From NCBI GenBank assembly GCA_963580285.1, contig OY757023.1, positions 129,178,027 through 129,242,026 on the forward strand: a DNA stretch of 64,000 nucleotides, read 5' to 3'. The notes below the pieces were generated by a model. That model made no database searches, was not told the origin of the DNA, and saw only the letters and a program-made list of their open reading frames with translations. This stretch comes from Lucinisca nassula. Taxonomy: Eukaryota > Mollusca > Bivalvia > Lucinida > Lucinidae. Below are positions 32,258 through 62,340 of this stretch, in pieces. A program made the translations under genes and the position numbers. Position 1 is the stretch's first letter. Every line of letters starts with the position of its first letter.

Positions 32258-33046
32258 ATCCCCAGCAGCTGATCTACACACATTTCCCAGAGGAGCAGGA
32301 ATGGCAGTTGCTGGACAGACCAAAGACAATCAAGGAATTTGAAACAATGGCTTTCCTCAAGGACAGATTCTTCAACCTCGAAATGAGGGTCTTATCACAT
32401 CCAAACTGCAACATAGAATGTTCAGACGGGGAAGTCGAGATTTTATTCGGGCTTCACCCGGAGAAATCTGTAAACCATACTTTTCTGTGTATTCCTACGC
32501 TGTTTGATGAACAAAAGCAGAAATCTACGCCCGTTGAACTCCCCCAGAAAAATGTTCAACTCGATTTTATTCATCGCCCCAATGAAAATGTTCTGTCAGT
32601 AAAAGTTCGTTTTCCTGCCGTGGATATGTACAAACTGGAGATTGTAGGGAAAGATTTGACAGTCACACAACCGGACTATGATTTTGACTGGGTCGCCATT
32701 TATAAAGTAAAGTGTACAAGTATTCCACCTAAACAGACTTTCTTTCCCCTCCTTGAAGCTGCAGGCTGGGGTCCGGGCAAACACCTGGAAGAATTTGGAC
32801 TGGAAGCACTTAGTCATGCTAACGGCGTGATCAATATGCATCCGGGACTGTTGGAAATGAAGTTCAGAATAGCGAATAAAAAGAAGGCAGAGACTCTGAA
32901 TTTAGTGTATAAAATGATTCCAATGGGTAAGGATGAAGAACAATATATGGCGGAGCCATTCAAAAAATCCGGTGATATTTTAGGGGCAGTGACGCAAGTG
33001 CAACCTGGAGAATTTAAAATGAAAATAAGCCACATGTTTGGGGAAG
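32258..33046 (+). CDS. KY: Kyphoscoliosis peptidase-like protein, exon b (KY C-terminal domain)
   Basis: This is the largest exon, 789 nt, between TTTCGATTACAG and a GTAAGT donor. Two bases complete the split Asp codon from exon a, giving FFLA-DPQQLIYTHFPEEQEWQ then LLDRPKTIKEFE. The sequence DPxxxIYxHFPxxxxWQLL is the hallmark that follows the transglutaminase core in KY and hillarin proteins. The rest (FFNLEMRVLSHPN, VEILFGLHPEK, EAAGWGPGKHLEEFGLEA) is the beta-rich KY-type domain. The exon ends SHMFGEG in phase 1. No stop or frameshift interrupts it, so the gene is probably functional. Penultimate segments such as IANKKKAETLNLVYKM are Lys-rich. Confidence 0.93.
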
Positions 33047-33081
33047 GTAAGTTTTCATAGTTGTTGTTTTTTGCTGCCCTC

Positions 33082-38815: not shown

Positions 38816-39019
38816 TTGTCAAATCTATTTCTCATAGCCCGACAAAGTTGAAAACCATAGTTCTTCGCTAAACTTTCGGAATATTTCGAATATCTAGCAC
38901 AGACCGAAGAGTCAGTACTGTTTGTTGGTAGTTAAATCTTCAACACAATCTTATTTTTTCCTATCTTCTCGCCTCATTTATAACCATACATAGCCTATCT
39001 CTTATGGTCATTTAATTAG

Positions 39020-39470
39020 TGTAACGGTTATAGATAAATACCACTTCTACAGCCTTGCTGTAGGAGCCGGCTCTTTTAGCGACGCAGGTAGAGTGGTTGG
39101 CTTATTCACGAAGTTAAGCAACGGAGATTGCGGTTAGTACCTGGATGGGTGACCGCGTTGTTTGACTTCGTGGACGACCCGGTACACGCAGCATTGGTGG
39201 CAGCGGTGGGATTGAAACAGTGCCGCTGGTTTGTTACATAGACTCCGCCCTCGGGTTTAGCCTTGGGAGGCATGTGTGACTTCGGGACGAAGTCAAGAGA
39301 TGAGGGGGAGAAATGTAACGGTTATAGATAAATACCACTTGGAGCCGGCTCTTTTAGCGACGCAGGTAGAGTGGTTGGCTTATTCACGAAGTATAGCAAC
39401 GGAGATTGCGGTTAGTACCTGGATGGGTGACCGCGTTGTTGACTTCGTGGACGACCCGGTACACGCAACA
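39020..39470 (+). mobile_element. Cassandra-like mini LTR retrotransposon with 5S-rRNA-derived LTR
   Basis: Two direct terminal repeats, 39020-39193 and 39314-39470, both begin TGTAACGG and end CGCARCA. After the first comes TGGTGGCAGCGGTGGGATT, complementary to the 3' end (with CCA) of tRNA-Leu, a canonical primer-binding site. Before the second comes the purine tract GATGAGGGGGAGAAA. The internal region is only 120 bp and non-coding, so this is a TRIM. Each LTR holds a segment near identical to the 5S rRNA internal promoter. No clear target-site duplication was seen. Confidence 0.85.
39108..39157 (+). promoter_or_regulatory. 5S rRNA-like internal promoter in the 5' LTR
   Basis: CGAAGTTAAGCAACG corresponds to the 5S A box, and CGGTTAGTACCTGGATGGG then TGACCGC to the 5S intermediate element and C box, with near-normal spacing. 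The rest of 5S rRNA is not preserved. It could recruit TFIIIA and RNA polymerase III, as proposed for plant Cassandra elements. Equivalent copies lie at 39384-39435 (one change in the A box) and 45302-45350. Confidence 0.82.
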
Positions 39471-39591
39471 TAAGCATATCAGGACGTCTCTTTTTCAATT
39501 ACGGATTTTTTCCCCTTTTCTCTGGTAAATCTGTAGACCTAGACATGTACCTTACTTTGGACCCCCCCCCCCATGATGGTTTCCTGGTTGG

Positions 39592-43270: not shown

Positions 43271-43586
43271 GCCGCCTCGTAGCTCAGTCGGATGCGCGTT
43301 TGACTGGTGATCGGGAGGACGCAGGTTCGATACCTGCCGGGGCCGGCAACATTCTTTCGGGGAGATTGATCATGAAATCTTTTCTACAGTCATTCTCTCC
43401 CTTCGGCTGATTCAAGAAGGGCAGATGTCAAGTTCTTGCGAAAGAATGTGCACTGTACTGGATAACATACTAACGTACAAGCCTGCCCAGGAAAAGTGTG
43501 GATAGGTCAACTGACCGGCTCATAAATGACATAAAATAGTGTTGACTGGGCCGTTAAACTCCAATAGGCTACAAACAAATAAACAA
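43271..43586 (+). mobile_element. SINE-B, full length, with 12-bp target-site duplication
   Basis: A tRNA-like head (GTAGCTCAGTCGGATGCG, B box GGTTCGATACC, ending CCGGGGC) leads to the SINE-B body and a GTTGACTGGGCCGTTAAAC tail with AAACAAATAAACAAA. It is flanked by ACGGCGGGCCGA (43259-43270) and ACGGTGGGCCGA (43587-43598), a duplication with one mismatch. The duplication rules out an ordinary tRNA gene. Confidence 0.92.
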
Positions 43587-44894: not shown

Positions 44895-45120
44895 AGTGAC
44901 TGTAGTGGTTGGTCGAAGTCTCCGGTCAGCGTAGGCCGATTCACCGACGTCGTGCATTGGTTGGACAAAAGCAAGAGATCCGGCTCTGGGGCATTCTGGG
45001 ATTGACAGCGAGCGGGAAAACGTCGACTAACGTAGAAAGAGACGACCGAGAAGAATATTCTACAAGTATTTGGGACCCAGACGCTACCAATCTTATTCAG
45101 GTAATACCCAGATACTTTAC
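44895..45120 (+). other. Unassigned 225-bp segment upstream of the TRIM primer site, possible coding remnant
   Basis: An open frame on the plus strand includes QEIRLWGILGLTASGKTSTN and REEYSTSIWDPDATNLIQV, with coding-like composition and a donor-like AGGTAATA just after. It does not match the LTR expected here. It may be a captured exon or a piece of a larger relative's internal region. I do not recognise the family. Confidence 0.3.
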
Positions 45121-45393
45121 TGGTGGCAGCGGTGGGATTCGAACCCACGCCTCCGAAGAGACTGGTGAGGCATGTGTGACTTCGGGACGAAGTCAAGAGA
45201 TGAGGGGGAGAAATGTAACGGTTATGGATAAATACCACTTCTACAGCCTTGCTGTAGGAGCCGGCTGTTTTAGCGACGCAGGTAGAGTGGTTGGCTTATT
45301 CACGAAGTTAAGCAACGGAGATTGCGGTTAGTACCTGGATGGGTGACCGCGTTGCTTGACTTCGTGGATGTGGACGACCCGGTACACGCTACA
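45121..45393 (+). mobile_element. Second 5S-LTR TRIM, lacking its 5' LTR, with extended tRNA-Leu sequence
   Basis: From 45121, TGGTGGCAGCGGTGGGATTC continues for about 45 nt as the exact complement of the 3' part of a tRNA-Leu (CCA, acceptor, T arm and variable-arm GTCTCTTCGG). Then come the shared internal piece CATGTGTGACTTCGGGACG, the purine tract and a 3' LTR at 45214-45393 with the 5S-like segment. No 5' LTR precedes it. Confidence 0.82.
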
Positions 45394-47806: not shown

Positions 47807-50525
47807 ATGAGTAAGCCTAAGAAAACTGACACTTTCTTATACCGTCACTTTCGACGTACAGGTCATTCTGTAAATAACATTGTTATACAACCAGTGGAAA
47901 AACTTTATTACGATGCAAATTCTACATCTAGATTCAAAATAATCAAAAGACATGAAGCTGAACTGAAATGGATTAAATTTTTACAGACCCCTTTTCCACT
48001 GGGATTTAATGACAACATTTATCATGAGGGTAATATTTCCAGAATGCCGGACTTTGATATTTTCTCACTCCTGGAATGTCGAAAACGCAGAACTAGATCT
48101 CACGGCACCAGGAAAAATGGTAACTTTAAACGTAAATCACGTGCGTTTAAACGAAACAATACTAGACTGAAGTGACTGTCAATTATATTATTAAATCATG
48201 GACGCCACTCTATGCTTTCATTTTTAAGTTCATTACCCGTTTCTGTTTTACGTCTTCTGGACACCGAGGCGAATAAATTCTACGATAGTTCTCATCAGTT
48301 ATATGATGCGGCTCTCTTAACTAGAGGCTATACTCAGCATACTCTCCGTCCTTACATTGATTCTGAAATTAATCATAAACGTCATTTCTTCAAAATATCC
48401 TTCATTAATAAGGGTATGGATTTTATAGATTTGCCCAGTATCTTCCGTGAGAGATCGGTGCTTTCTTCCATTCCTGCTTATTTTCAAAATACTGAAACAC
48501 CTATAATTTTCTATAAATATAACAAACCTGTTAGATCTATCATTTTTAATTTCAATAAACTTGTTTCAGATCTTGATATTGATACTAATACTCCTGATTC
48601 ATGTGGTTGTAAAAACTCAAAGTATTGCTATCCTGCTGCTGGCCATGTAATTACTGGCAATTTGAAAATTATTCCTGATTCTAGGATAAGGAATATAATT
48701 TCTAAAGGACCGAAATATCGGTTTCCTTCTAAAATTGATTTCAGTAAATGTAGAGATGAAATCGCTGCTTCCTTGGATGAATTCGGTAATCGATGGTGTA
48801 AGCGAGAGTATATTGAGCATAAAGCCCTTAAGGACTGGAAACTTAGCATTTTAAAGCTAGTGAATAAACGCATTTCTTTCTATTCTCAAAATACTAACTT
48901 ATTACCTCCTAAGCCCAAGACGTCTTTACGTCATCTTAAAATAGGTATTCAAGAATTTCATAAGAAATTTGTTTTGGCCACTGCAGACAAGGCTGCTAAC
49001 AACGTCGTCGTTGTGTGACGGCTCCACTATGTTAACACGCTTAAGCAGGAACTTGGTGGTACTAAGGCCTATGAACTTCAGCCTTTAGCTGAAGAGAGAG
49101 CTATAGTAGATACACATGTTTGTCTTTCAGCCACCAAGTTTGCTGTGTGTGTTAACGAAGGCCAAGACAAGCTTCCTACGCTATACTGGTTACCAAAACT
49201 TCATAAAAAACCCTACAAAGCACGGTTTATTGCAAATTCTAGCTCTTGCACTACCACTGAACTTTCTAGATTATTAACTTCCTGTCTTACTGCTATTAAA
49301 ACGCATGTAATTAAATATTGTGATAAAGTCTTTGAAAGATCAGGAAGAAATCTGTTTTGGTCTATAAAAAATCGAATGAGGTTTTAAATAAATTGAAATC
49401 TAGACATTTTCGTGCTTCTAGTCTGTCTACCTACGATTTTTCCACTCTTTACACTACACTTCCTCATAATCTTATAAAAGAAAAGCTTAATGATTTAATT
49501 GAATGGGCTTTTCACAGAGAAGATTCTCTCTAGCTTGCATGTAATGTCCGAAATGCATGTTTCACTTCTAAAGAGCATAAGAATTATACACTTTGGTCTT
49601 GTCAGTAAGTGTGTGATGCCCTCACCTTTCTACTTGACAATATTTATATTAGATTCGGTACTAAGTTATTTAGACAAATTGTGGGTATTCCGATGGGTAC
49701 TAATTGCGCACCTCTTGTGGCTGATCTGTTCTTGTATTGTTATGAAAGAGACTTCATTTTGTCGCTTTCCATTGATAACCAATCTGAAATTATTGAAGCT
49801 TTTAGCTCTACTTCTAGATATTTAGATGATTTATTAAATATTGATAATGCCTATTTTGATGGTTTGATCAGTCAGATTTACCCCCCCCCCCCCCAGAACT
49901 TCAGTTAAATAAAGCAAATTCTTCTGATACAGAGACCCCGTTTTTGGATTTACATCTATCTATTGTAGATGGATTTGTTTCGTGCAAAATTTATGATAAA
50001 CGCGATGACTTTGATTTTGAGATTGTAAATTTTCCTTTTTTGGATGATGATGTTCCTCGTGCGCTATCCTATGGCGTTTATATTTCGCAATTAATTCGAT
50101 TTGCTAGAGTGTGTAGTCATGTAACTGACTTCAACACTCGTAATAAATTATTAACGGCTAAACTCCTTAATCAGGGTTATTGGTACCATAAACTACGCAA
50201 AGCCTTTTCAAAATTTTATAGACGCCATTCTGATTTAATTTCAAAATTCAATATTGGACTTAAACCTCTTCTACAACAAGGTCTATCGGAACCCGAATTT
50301 TATGGTGACTTAGTATATAAATTCAGAAAAATATATAACCGCAATGACTTAAGCACCCAATTTCGTAAAATCATTCTTCGATATAAAAAGATTGGGTACA
50401 ACATGTATATTATACGACAGACTGCATGCATGGTAGTTAACCCAATCACGGTTGGCAACTGTGCTTCCCTCTTTAATTGCACGCCGGTGGGTCAAGCCTC
50501 AGATTCTATGACGGCTCCAACGTAA
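47807..50525 (+). pseudogene. Penelope-like element, GIY-YIG + reverse transcriptase (copy 1)
   Basis: In order: the C-terminal half of an N-terminal GIY-YIG endonuclease (KTDTFLYRHFRRTGHS, LKWIKFLQTPFPLGFND, 47807-48080), a basic linker, a Cys-containing segment (CGCKNSKYCYPAAGHVITG), then the reverse transcriptase. RT motifs are KLPTLYWLPKLHKKPYKAR, STYDFSTLYTTLPHNLI (motif A), VGIPMGTNCAPLVADLF, SRYLDDLLNI (catalytic YLDD) and TPFLDLHLSI. An endonuclease ahead of the RT is the permuted Naiad-type order. Such enzymes prime reverse transcription at nicked DNA. Lesions: stops at 48173 and 49016, a frameshift near 49375, stops near 49531 and 49604, and a 14-C run at 49881. The 5' end is truncated. 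Confidence 0.9.
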
Positions 50526-51095
50526 AGGCTTATTGAAAATTAGAGAGATAATGTTGGTTGGTGCCTGATGCTCTGTCTCTGGTCGGGCTCATCGGAGTCT
50601 AACTGTTGGTTTTCTTTTGCTCCAGCATTTCAGTGGTTTCTTGCTGTCGAGTCCTCACCGTTGTCTCACCTCTGTGGTTCTTTGATTTTTGTGTTCACAG
50701 AGATGTTGCACTGATGAGTTAGGAGGCCTTCATGCGGACTGAACAAATTATTTGTCTAAATCGCGACGGAAGTAAGGGCGAGGATTGTGGCCACGTAAAA
50801 TCGATTTAAGCCCCCCAGTGGAAATCTTCCACTGACCGTTCCAAGGCGGCTCTTCTGTGGCGATTTATTTATGTTGTTGTTTGTTACTTACTGTGTGTAT
50901 CACTTGTGTCTTTTGGTTTTGGATGGCCATATGGCCATTTTGTGGGAAAGTAACTGTCCTTATGGCCTTCCTTTGTTTAGGTTTCCATTATGGTCTGGTC
51001 GCTTAATGTTTGTATTTCTTTCCCTTTGGTGTCTTTTATGGGTGGAGTAAGTTAATTGTATCAATTCCTGATCTTTGTTTTACTTCTACTTTACA
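50526..51095 (+). repeat. 3' untranslated region of the Penelope-like copy 1
   Basis: Includes GGATTGTGGCCACGTAAAATC, CCAAGGCGGCTCTTCTG, the palindromic GGCCATATGGCCATTTTG and the tail AATTGTATCAATTCCTGATC. Parts of this region recur as solo tails across the window. A hammerhead-like relic lies at 50711-50760. Confidence 0.85.
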
Positions 51096-51179: not shown

Positions 51180-52519
51180 AAAAGTAGAAGTAAAACAAAG
51201 ATCAAGAATCGATACAATTAACTTACTCCACCCATCAAAGACACCAAAGGGAAAGAAACACACACATTAAGCGACCAGACCATAATGGAAACCTTAACAA
51301 AGGAAGGCCATAAGGTCAGTTACTTTTCCAAAAAATGGCCATATGGCCATCCAAAATAAAAAGACACAAGTGATACACACAGTAAGTAACAAACAACAGT
51401 ATAAATAAATCGCCACAGAAGAACCGCCTTGGAACGGTCAGTGGAAAGATTTCCACTGGGGGGCTTAAATCGATTTTACGTGGCCACAATCCTCGCCCTG
51501 ACCTCCGTCGCGATTTAGACAAATAATTTGTTGTCCGCATGAAGGCCTCCTAACTCATCAGTGCAACATCTCCGTGAACACAAATAATCAAAGAACCACA
51601 GAGGTGAGACAACGGTGAGGACTCGACAGCAAGAAACCACTGAAATGATGGAGCAAAAGTAAACCAACAGTTAGACTCCGATGGGCCCAACCAACATTAC
51701 CTTGAATTAGATCTCTCTAATTCTCAATAAGCCTTTACGTTGGAACCATCAAAGAATCTGAGACCTGACCCACCGGCGTGCAGTTAAAGAGGGAAGCAAA
51801 GTTGCCAACCGTGATTGGGTTAACTACTATGCATGCAGTCTGTCGTATAATATCTATGTTGTACCCAATCTTTTTATATCGAAGAATGATTTTACGAAAT
51901 TGGGTGCTAAAGTCATTGTGGTTATATATTTTTCTGAATTTATATACTAAGTCACCGTAAAATTCGGGTTCTGATAGACCTTGTTGCAGAAGAGATTTAA
52001 GTCCAATATTGAATTTTGAAATTAAATCAGAATGGCGTCTATAAAATTTTGAAAAGGCTTTGCGTAGTTTATGGTACCGATAACCCTGATTAAGAAGTTT
52101 AGCCGTTAATAATTTATTACGAGTGTTGAAGTCAGTTACATGACTCTACACTCTAGCAAATCGAATTAATTGCGAAATATAAACGCCATAGGATGGCGCA
52201 CAAGGAACATCACCATCCAAAAAAGGAAAATTTACAATCTCCAAATCAAAGTCATCGCGTTTATCATAAATTTTGCACGAAACAAACCCATCTACAATAT
52301 ATAGATGTAAATCCAAAAACGGGGCCTCGGTATCAGAAGAATTTGCTTTATTTAACTGAAGTTCTGGGGGGGGGGGGGGGGGGGTAAATCTGACTGATCA
52401 AACCATCGAAACAGGTATTATCAATATTTAATAAATCATCTAAATATCTAGAAGTGGAGCTAAAAGCTTCAATAATTTCAGATTGGTTATCAATGGAAAG
52501 CGACAACATGATCAATAAG
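51180..52519 (-). pseudogene. Penelope-like element, 3' half (copy 2), tail-to-tail with copy 1
   Basis: Reading leftwards from 52519 gives the RT region after VADLF through the C-terminus and the whole 3' UTR, ending at the tail complement at about 51180. An 84-bp spacer (51096-51179) separates the two tails. A 19-G run (52366-52384) interrupts the frame at the same place as the C run of copy 1. A MITE-A insertion truncates it at about 52520. Confidence 0.88.
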
Positions 52520-59917: not shown

Positions 59918-62340
59918 AAAATAGAAGTGGAGGCAATGATCAGGAATCGATACAATCAACCCGAAGCTCCCATCAGAGACACTAAAGGGAAAGACACACA
60001 AACATGAAACAACAGACCCTATTGAAACACCAACAACGGAAAGCCAAAAGGATATTTACTTTCCAACAAAATGACCAATAGGCTATCCAAAATAAAATAA
60101 CATAAGCGGCACAAAAACCCAAAGAAAAACCATAACAAAAATAAACCACGACAGAAGAACCGCCTTGGAACGGTCAGCGGAAACGAATCCCACTGTGGGG
60201 CTTAAATGGATTTTACGTGGCCACAATCCTCGCCCTTACTTCCGTCGCGACCCAGACAAATGATTTGTTCAGTCCGCATGAATGCCTCCTAACTCATCAG
60301 TGCAACATCTCCGTGGACACAAAAAATCAAACAACAACAGAGGTGAGACAACGGTTAGGACTCGACAGCAAGAAACCACTGAAATGCTGGAGCAAAAGAA
60401 AACCAACAGTTAGACTCCGATGGGCCAGACCAGAGACAGAGCATCAGGCACCAACCAACCTTACCTTGAATTGGAGCTCTCTAATTCTCAATAAGCCTTT
60501 ACGTTGGAACCGTCATAGAATCTGAGGCCTGACCCACCGGCGAGCAATTAAAGAGGGAAGCAAAGTCGTCAACCATATTTGGATAAACTACCATGCATGC
60601 AGTCTGTCGTTTAACATTTACGTTGTACCCAATCTTTTTATATCGAAGAATGATTTTACGAAATTGGGTGCTGAAGTCATTGCGGTTATATATATATATA
60701 TATTTTTCTGAATTTATATACTAGGTTACCATAAAATTCGGGTTCCGATAGACCTTGATGCAGAAGAGATTTAAGTCCAATATTGAATTTTGATATTAAC
60801 TTAGAATGGCTTCTATTAAATTTTGAAAAGGCTATGCGTAGTTTATGGGATCGTTAACCCTGATTAAGAAGTTTAGCCGTTAATAATTTATTACGAGTGT
60901 TGAAGACAGTTACATGACTATACATTCTGGCAAATCGAATTAGTTGCGAAATATAAACGCCATAGGATGGCGCACGAGGAACATCACCATCCAAAAAAAG
61001 GAAAATTTACAATCTCAAAATCAAAATCATCGCGTTCATCATAAATTTTGCACGAAACAAACCCATCTAATTAGATAGATGTAAATCCAAAGACGGAGCC
61101 TCGGTATCAGAAGAATTTGATTTATTTAACTGAAGTTCTTGGGGGTAAATCTGACTGATCAAACCATCGAAATAGGTATTATCAATATTTAATAAATCAT
61201 CCAAATATCTAGAAGTGGTGCTAAAAGCTTCAATGATTTCAGACTGGTTTTCAGCAGAAAGGGACATCATGAAGTCTCTCTCATAACAAAACAAAAAACA
61301 GATCAGCTACAAGTGGTGCGCAATTAGTACCCATCGGAATACCCACAGCTTGTCTAAATAACTTAGTACCAAATCTTATGTAAATATTGTCAAGTAGAAA
61401 GGTGAGAGCTTCACACACTTTCTGACATGACCATAAAGTATAATTTTTATGCTCTTCAGAAGTGAAAAAAAAGCATTTCTTACATTACATGCAAGATAGA
61501 GGGAGTAGTCCCTATGAAATGCCCATTTCGTTAAATCATTAAGTTTTTCTTTTATAAGATAATGAGGCAGTGTAGTGCAAAGGGTGGAAAAATCATAAGT
61601 GGACAGACTTGAAGCACGAAAACGCCTTGATTTCAATTTATTTAAAACTTCGTTAGAATTTTTATAGACCAAAACAGATTTCTACCTGATCTTTCGGAGA
61701 CTTTGTCGCAATATTTTATCACATGTTTTTGATAGCAGTAAAACATGAAGTTAATAATTTGGAGAGTTCAGTGGTAGTACAAGAGTTTGAATTTGCAATA
61801 AACCGTGCTTTGTATGTTTTTTATGAAGTTTAGGTAACCAGTATAACGTAAGAAGCCTGTCTTGGCCTTCTGTAACACAGACAACAAATTTGGTGGCTGA
61901 ATGACAAATGTGGTCTTCAACTAAAGCCCTCTCTACAGCTAAAGGCTGATGTTCATAGGCCTTAGTACCACCAAGTTCTTGCTGAAGAGTGTTAACATAG
62001 TGAAGCCGTCAAATAACGACCACATTGTTAGCGGCCTTATCAGCTGGAGCCAAAACAAACTTCCTACGAAATTCTTGAATACCTAGTTTAAGGTGACGTA
62101 AAGACGTCTTAGGTTTAGGAGGTAATAAGTTCGTATTTTTCGAATAAAAAGAAATGCGCGTGTTCACTTATTTCAGAATGCTAAGTTTCCATTCCTTAAG
62201 AGCTTTATGCTAAACATACTCTCGTTTACACAATCGATTACCAAATTCATTCAAAGGCAGCAGCGATTTCATCTCTACATTTATTAAAATCAATTTTAGA
62301 AGGAAATCGATATTTTCGGCGTAGCCTCCCATGAGGATGA
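59918..62340 (-). pseudogene. Penelope-like element (copy 3), minus strand
   Basis: Starting from the tail complement at 59918 and the UTR (60140-60330), reading leftwards gives the RT C-terminus, RYLDDLLNIDNTYFDG (near 61180-61230), the VxIPMGTNCAPL region, YDFSTLCTTLPHYLI (near 61590) and upstream the linker to about 62340. Here the LNKSN / IYPQELQL stretch has only five G (61141-61145), so the homopolymer frameshift of copies 1 and 2 is absent, but other stops remain. The 5' GIY-YIG part is missing. Confidence 0.88.

Follow-up and report, generated by a model that had tools for sequence, protein, structure and literature searches.

What is the 450-bp sequence at 39020–39470 of a 64,000-nt stretch of Lucinisca nassula DNA (hereafter, the window), whose repeated ends resemble part of a 5S rRNA gene, and how could such a sequence move? 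The preliminary description had recognized an element of about 450 bp with two LTRs, a tRNA-Leu primer site, a purine tract and no coding sequence, and we found every one of these features in place. The sequence is a TRIM, i.e. a non-autonomous LTR retrotransposon of less than 1 kb without genes: it has two LTRs, its primer-binding site (PBS) adjoins the 5' LTR and its polypurine tract (PPT) adjoins the 3' LTR, and a survey of open reading frames (ORFs) in 39020–39470 detected no coding sequence, only stop-to-stop frames of 70–71 aa. The features of this element, of its candidate target-site duplication (TSD) and of a second, truncated copy in the window are as follows.

39016–39019, forward strand: left TSD candidate, TTAG (boundary set on 38 copies)
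39020–39193, forward strand: 5' LTR (LTR1), 174 nt, TGTAACGG...GCAGCA
39034–39040, forward strand: TATA-like box (ATAAATA), positions -29 to -23 relative to the predicted start of Pol III
39063–39077, forward strand: predicted R, 15 nt, from +1 (39063) to TTTT (39074–39077)
39105–39174, forward strand: predicted RNA hairpin, pairing 39105–39122 (box A) with 39157–39174
39112–39123, forward strand: 5S box A, AGTTAAGCAACG, same as host 5S +50 to +61
39142–39154, forward strand: 5S box C, TGGATGGGTGACC, same as host 5S +80 to +92
39194, forward strand: one-base spacer T between LTR1 and internal domain
39195–39313, forward strand: internal domain, 119 nt, with GAGGGGGAGAAA at its end
39195–39212, forward strand: PBS TGGTGGCAGCGGTGGGAT, 18 nt, complement of the tRNA-Leu 3' end including CCA
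39302–39313, forward strand: PPT GAGGGGGAGAAA
39314–39470, forward strand: 3' LTR (LTR2), 157 nt, without a 16-nt stretch (CTACAGCCTTGCTGTA) present in LTR1
39352–39355, forward strand: TTTT of the 3' LTR, where Pol III is predicted to terminate
39471–39474, forward strand: right TSD candidate, TAAG
45121–45393, forward strand: truncated second copy, 5' LTR missing, 3' part of the internal domain retained
45121–45165, forward strand: tRNA-Leu complement of the second copy, 45 nt
45214–45393, forward strand: 3' LTR of the second copy

The PBS of the window copy reads TGGTGGCAGCGG, and its assignment to tRNA-Leu is made against what we take to be the tRNA-Leu sequence. Besides the 16-nt gap, LTR2 differs from LTR1 by three substitutions and a one-base indel, and its box A carries two changes; 57 of 87 LTR copies have the missing 16-nt stretch in full. 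The TSD of the window copy is imperfect, TTAG and TAAG agreeing at three of four positions.

As reference for the likeness to 5S rRNA we used the host's own 5S gene, obtained by a search of the same genome with the Rfam model (at least 47 places). LTR1 is identical to this gene at 42 of 48 positions over 5S +47 to +94, giving a score of 36, whereas 2000 shuffles of LTR1 gave a mean of 8.2 (sd 1.3) and a maximum of 15. LTR2 and the LTR of the second copy score 32 and 36, against maxima of 17 and 15 in 2000 shuffles each. The similarity, with which the preliminary description would stand or fall, is thus significant (36 for LTR1 against a shuffle maximum of 15). Its claim of about 45 bp nearly identical to 5S rRNA is right for boxes A and C, which are identical in LTR1, and has to be withdrawn for the intermediate element: five of the six mismatches between LTR1 and 5S fall within +62 to +68, in the intermediate region, which has diverged. 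Beyond the matched stretch, identity is at chance level (16/46 before it, and 10/26 at +94 to +119). We regard as probable an overall explanation, set out below, in which the LTRs acquired the control region of a 5S rRNA gene and nothing else of it. Furthermore, a human 5S query matched three places in the window at E<10, which are the three LTRs; the Rfam 5S model gave no match to the LTRs at E≤10.

In the accessible text of PMC7215508, the boxes of Cassandra are given as RGTTAAGYRHGY, 18 nt and RRRATRGGTRACY. At this 18-nt spacing, they match with 3/25 mismatches at 39112 and 45306 and with 5/25 at 39390; when the spacing is varied between 12 and 24, the three LTRs have at least six mismatches at every other value. 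When one strand of 100 simulated windows was searched, the best mismatch count was 4 in 3 windows, 5 in 32, 6 in 57 and 7 in 8. An unrelated place without an LTR, at 61797, also has 5 mismatches. Because simulated windows and this place reach 5 mismatches, LTR2 is not significant by the Cassandra-box test alone.

Copies of the element are present elsewhere in the host's genome (2,926,205,003 bases, i.e. 2.93 Gb, in 696 contigs), in which we found at least 59 matches, including array units that overlap one another; the number is a lower bound because 40 of 1995 first-look candidates were scored. After removal of duplicate loci (L001, L004, L005, L007 and L008), 40 loci were oriented, and the 38 with both ends were kept (L039 and L044, which have no complete end, were dropped). 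These comprise 29 two-LTR copies of 439–467 bp and nine LTR-internal-LTR arrays. They start with TG in 37/38 cases and finish with CA in 37/38, and seven of the 38 do not contain the PBS word used in the survey. A 4-bp TSD is exact in 29/38 (22/29 two-LTR copies and 7/9 arrays), matches at three of four positions in seven more, and at fewer in two (L012 and L033); the insertion-site evidence that the preliminary description had demanded of other copies therefore exists. Shifting the boundary by one base at both ends gave exact TSDs in 16 and 13 copies, and the other boundaries tested gave three at most. The base before the 4-bp TSD is often A (16/38) and the base after it often T (13/38), a pattern resembling a mild, symmetric preference at the target site. 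A 5-bp reading thus retains some plausibility: if one base is taken off the LTR, 16/38 copies have an exact 5-bp TSD. LTR pairs could be compared in 23 copies, and they diverge by 0 to 6.9% (median 3.2%, one pair being identical), values that overstate youth, as the sample overstates intactness, because the copies are the best-scoring matches to the window copy and not a random sample. Some of the insertions are recent, and the family has been recently active.

Eleven loci (L034–L044) are LTR-internal tandem arrays with three to five LTRs, and one of them, L039, looks like a repeated two-unit block. In seven of the nine complete arrays, a single exact 4-bp TSD flanks the array as a whole, which speaks against the merging of two neighbouring insertions, a route to arrays that is among those discussed for Cassandra in the accessible literature. 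Another locus (L060, reverse strand, 1325–1728) is a mini TRIM, in which two TRIM LTRs lie about 54 nt apart and the spacer consists of an extended tRNA-Leu complement and a purine tract. Words from the LTR, PBS or PPT had no matches in viral and prokaryote contig collections, where an animal element would hardly be expected. A translated piece of the TRIM matched one protein, P0013, which in turn matched nine, itself included. The translation of P0013 runs through box C, PBS, internal domain, PPT and LTR start in this order, most of the others span only part of the TRIM, and we read these proteins as spurious ORFs on other contigs, some of which may come from other assemblies of the same species.

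Which known elements does this family resemble? Because Ajax has been published, the kind of animal TRIM that carries a 5S promoter is already known. According to the accessible text of Kojima 2024 (PMC10886601), Ajax (Ajax-1_LiLo and Ajax-1_NGe) is an animal TRIM of two nemerteans only, Notospermus geniculatus and Lineus longissimus; of 5S its LTR contains just the promoter, its PBS is that for tRNA-Leu and its TSD measures 5 bp, and no helper is named for it there. Among the matches listed by a search of the open literature, there was no animal case besides Ajax, and the accessible part of a 2026 meeting report mentions only Helenus and Ajax (PMC12859917). Our family shares with Ajax, as the latter is described, the restriction to the 5S promoter region in the LTR, the tRNA-Leu PBS and an RNA fold that is not 5S-like. 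We have nevertheless not filed it as Ajax, because the TSD of Ajax is 5 bp and that of our family is best read as 4 bp. Our tentative reading, to which we would give slightly less than an even chance, is that this is an independently born lineage of animal 5S-promoter TRIMs, mobilized by a tRNA-Leu Gypsy element that makes 4-bp duplications. It is also possible, if on the unlikely side, that the family belongs to the same lineage as Ajax, through common descent or horizontal transfer, and had no separate origin. The anatomy is the same as described, the lengths are similar (421 or 434 bp for Ajax versus 439–467 bp here), and the 16 copies with an exact 5-bp TSD under a shorter LTR could be read in this sense; on the other hand, 4 bp fits best (29/38 versus 16/38 for 5 bp), and Ajax is reported, in the text available, from the two nemerteans only.

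The element had also been called Cassandra-like, a name that is apt for how it works, with 5S boxes at an 18-nt spacing in both LTRs, a short R and LTR-internal-LTR arrays, and need not imply kinship with the plant element, the nearest published relative being the animal Ajax. As far as the accessible parts of PMC10886601, PMC7215508 and PMC10853983 go, Cassandra is described from plants, is longer (about 560–860 bp) and has a larger 5S core, of about 70 bp. Its R is 18 bp (PMC10886601) versus about 15 nt predicted here, its PBS is that of Met, TGGTATCAGAGC (PMC7215508), versus Leu here, and according to Kojima no helper is indicated for it (PMC10886601). In the case of biv-TRIM (Satovic 2019, PMC6934838), the likeness consists of its being a bivalve TRIM with tandem arrays and a PPT, GGGGAGA, that is contained in GAGGGGGAGAAA. 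However, its repeats are 202–218 bp, its internal segment is 77–80 bp with TGATCCCAAAGGAC, which is absent here, and it has no clear PBS; the term '5S rRNA' does not occur in the accessible text of that paper. These differences in size and internal segment, together with the absence of a clear PBS, make biv-TRIM a different element. The animal Helenus, in the account accessible in PMC10886601, is likewise a TRIM with a Pol III promoter, 4-bp TSDs and a link to Gypsy, but its promoter is derived from tRNA and not from 5S rRNA. We file the family under the TRIMp3 kind of Kojima, as promoter sequence of a small-RNA gene lies inside its LTR; this filing is by sequence only, and the use of Pol III is predicted.

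Could the 5S control region drive transcription? Aligning box A with 5S +50 places the predicted +1 at 39063 (LTR position 44). The ATAAATA upstream of it is kept in 77 of the 87 LTR copies, and five host 5S loci have TTTATATAT at -30 to -22. A TTTT lies at +12 to +15 of the predicted start in LTR1, and among the two-LTR copies it is present at R in 27/29 first LTRs and in 29/29 second LTRs. The TATA-like box at -29 and the TTTT at +12 are compatible with a transcript made by Pol III in which the R repeat is 15 nt long. The position of the T4 run is weak evidence, since about 1.5 such runs per element are expected by chance; moreover, the TTTT of the 5' LTR, 12 nt past the predicted start, would require Pol III to read through, and in six of 29 copies a further T4 run lies between the R sites, where Pol III should terminate prematurely. 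Of the 87 complete LTRs, 76 share an identical box A, 66 an identical box C and 40 an identical 18-nt spacer between the two. The mean majority is 0.988 for box A and 0.980 for box C, 0.948–0.958 for U3, R, the sequence leading up to box A and the spacer between the boxes, and 0.974–0.985 for the segments 3' of box C; since conservation is good on the 3' side of the boxes as well, that of the boxes themselves is a modest argument.

These observations bear on another explanation, namely that the TRIM is driven by Pol II and that the 5S segment rides along as the remnant of an old insertion of a 5S SINE (such SINEs are treated in PMC8010984, as far as accessible). The divergence of the intermediate region would be compatible with this, and the TATA-like box also suits Pol II; we nonetheless consider it distinctly unlikely, as the boxes keep a spacing of exactly 18 nt and are more constant than their spacer in the 87 LTRs, and the TATA-like box stands at the distance seen in 5S genes. 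That the sequence might be no LTR element at all, but a 5S-derived SINE (SINE3) or an array of duplicated 5S pseudogenes, would account for the 5S promoter boxes and the existence of tandem arrays, and is scarcely credible in view of the LTR pairs, the 18-nt PBS with its CCA complement, the PPT, the 4-bp TSDs and the TG...CA ends.

A functional RNA structure was considered for the predicted hairpin. It folds better than shuffled sequences do, with z values of -5.9, -3.6 and -5.4, and each pair is kept in 82–87 of the 87 LTRs. Two-sided changes, for instance at columns 94/147 and 111/137, occur in single copies only, the copies being nearly identical to one another, and with hardly any covariation the case is weak and no proof of function, so that we did not adopt it.

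We thus hold it to be probable that the element is a Pol III-driven TRIM with a 5S control region, moved by a Gypsy helper that uses tRNA-Leu, and we infer the following cycle. TFIIIA, TFIIIC and TFIIIB would bind the 5' LTR at its 5S boxes and at the TATA-like box upstream of them, and Pol III would start at about 39063, proceed through the rest of the LTR, the PBS, the internal domain and U3, and stop at the TTTT of the 3' LTR, yielding an RNA of about 293 nt with an R of about 15 nt at each end. This RNA would be packaged by a helper Gypsy element also using tRNA-Leu; tRNA-Leu would prime at the PBS, the R repeats would permit strand transfer, and the PPT would prime the second strand. The helper's integrase would then insert the element, producing the 4-bp duplication, and unequal exchange between LTRs could generate the arrays.

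Which Gypsy element might be the helper? The word TGGTGGCAGCGGTGGGATTCGAACC has five occurrences in the genome, and its backward control never occurs. At one place (L058/L062) there is a Gypsy-type element with the domain order protease, reverse transcriptase (RT), RNase H and integrase, LTRs of 744 nt that are 99.7% identical, and the TSD CAGG/CAGG. It is of the right type with respect to primer tRNA and 4-bp TSD, but was not taken as the helper, as it has no TRIM sequence beyond the PBS. A second Gypsy family was found at L067–L077 (L078 and L079 extend the L076 place). In this family the LTR end CGCTACA is followed by T (C in L077) and then by the same 18-nt PBS as in the TRIM. The L078-type element has an ORF in the gag position, in which a domain search recognized no gag domain, and downstream of it the domains of RT, RNase H and integrase. 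Between its two LTRs identity is 99.7%, and their comparison with the TRIM LTR gave no significant match. At one locus, L075, a TRIM LTR (97%, positions 1–170) replaces the Gypsy LTR before the PBS and the first ORF, and from the LTR end on the sequence is 99.3–99.7% identical to three other Gypsy copies; an inverted PBS on the other side indicates that the locus is rearranged. The LTR-PBS junction is present in 7/11 of the loci L067–L077 (drawn from at least 25 places), and one of these seven has the TRIM LTR.

The chimera at L075 is likely, from its sequence, to be a product of strand transfer between TRIM and Gypsy templates in one particle, a reading under which the second Gypsy family would be the helper. 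We therefore view the L078-type family as the likely helper of the TRIM, a conclusion drawn from one chimera in a rearranged cluster. The preliminary description had suggested looking for an autonomous partner with the same LTR: L075 points to a candidate partner, but the LTR of this candidate has no significant match to that of the TRIM. What is new here is a locus where a TRIM LTR precedes the coding part of a Gypsy element that uses tRNA-Leu, which offers a lead to the helper. If our reading is true, this hybrid would be the first direct trace of a helper for a Pol III-driven LTR element, and the presence of a recently active family and a candidate helper in one genome makes the packaging and reverse transcription of Pol III RNAs by Gypsy testable.

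A further locus, L063, has 79 nt of the TRIM internal domain and PPT (94.9%) before another sequence. This neighbour is an antisense Gypsy, and the 11 loci L067–L077 carry a different sequence before it; L063 is therefore a TRIM fragment in a rearranged cluster and was rejected as proof of the helper. The region that includes L063 and L067–L075 (C15:39.187–39.287 Mb) contains clustered Gypsy copies that have been rearranged; in some, the LTR-PBS junctions are inverted, as might be seen in products of self-integration.

The truncated second copy in the window has a long PBS, a perfect 45-nt complement of tRNA-Leu that reaches the anticodon stem, as judged against the tRNA-Leu sequence that we assume, whereas among other copies the listed forms of the PBS depart from the tRNA after about 18 nt. 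This suggests that reverse transcription may have proceeded past the usual stop in the tRNA. Upstream of this PBS, 44906–45120 has GATACTTTA in common with L057, where it also lies directly before a PBS, and this sequence may be another LTR family.

Elsewhere in the window, 48212–50525, 51735–52397 and 60499–62008 contain pieces of ORFs that are related to one another and occur in both direct and inverted orientation, and the arms 49881–50549 and 51711–52379 are 96% identical. The pieces between 48212 and 62008 are, we presume, possibly from a Penelope-like element; a Pfam search with two of these ORFs gave no match. At 32308–33060 there is an exon-like ORF with a KY-type immunoglobulin-like domain (PF23265), whose best three database matches are 81–90% identical, and 43272–43347 is a tRNA-Thr (GGT) gene or a tRNA-like sequence.
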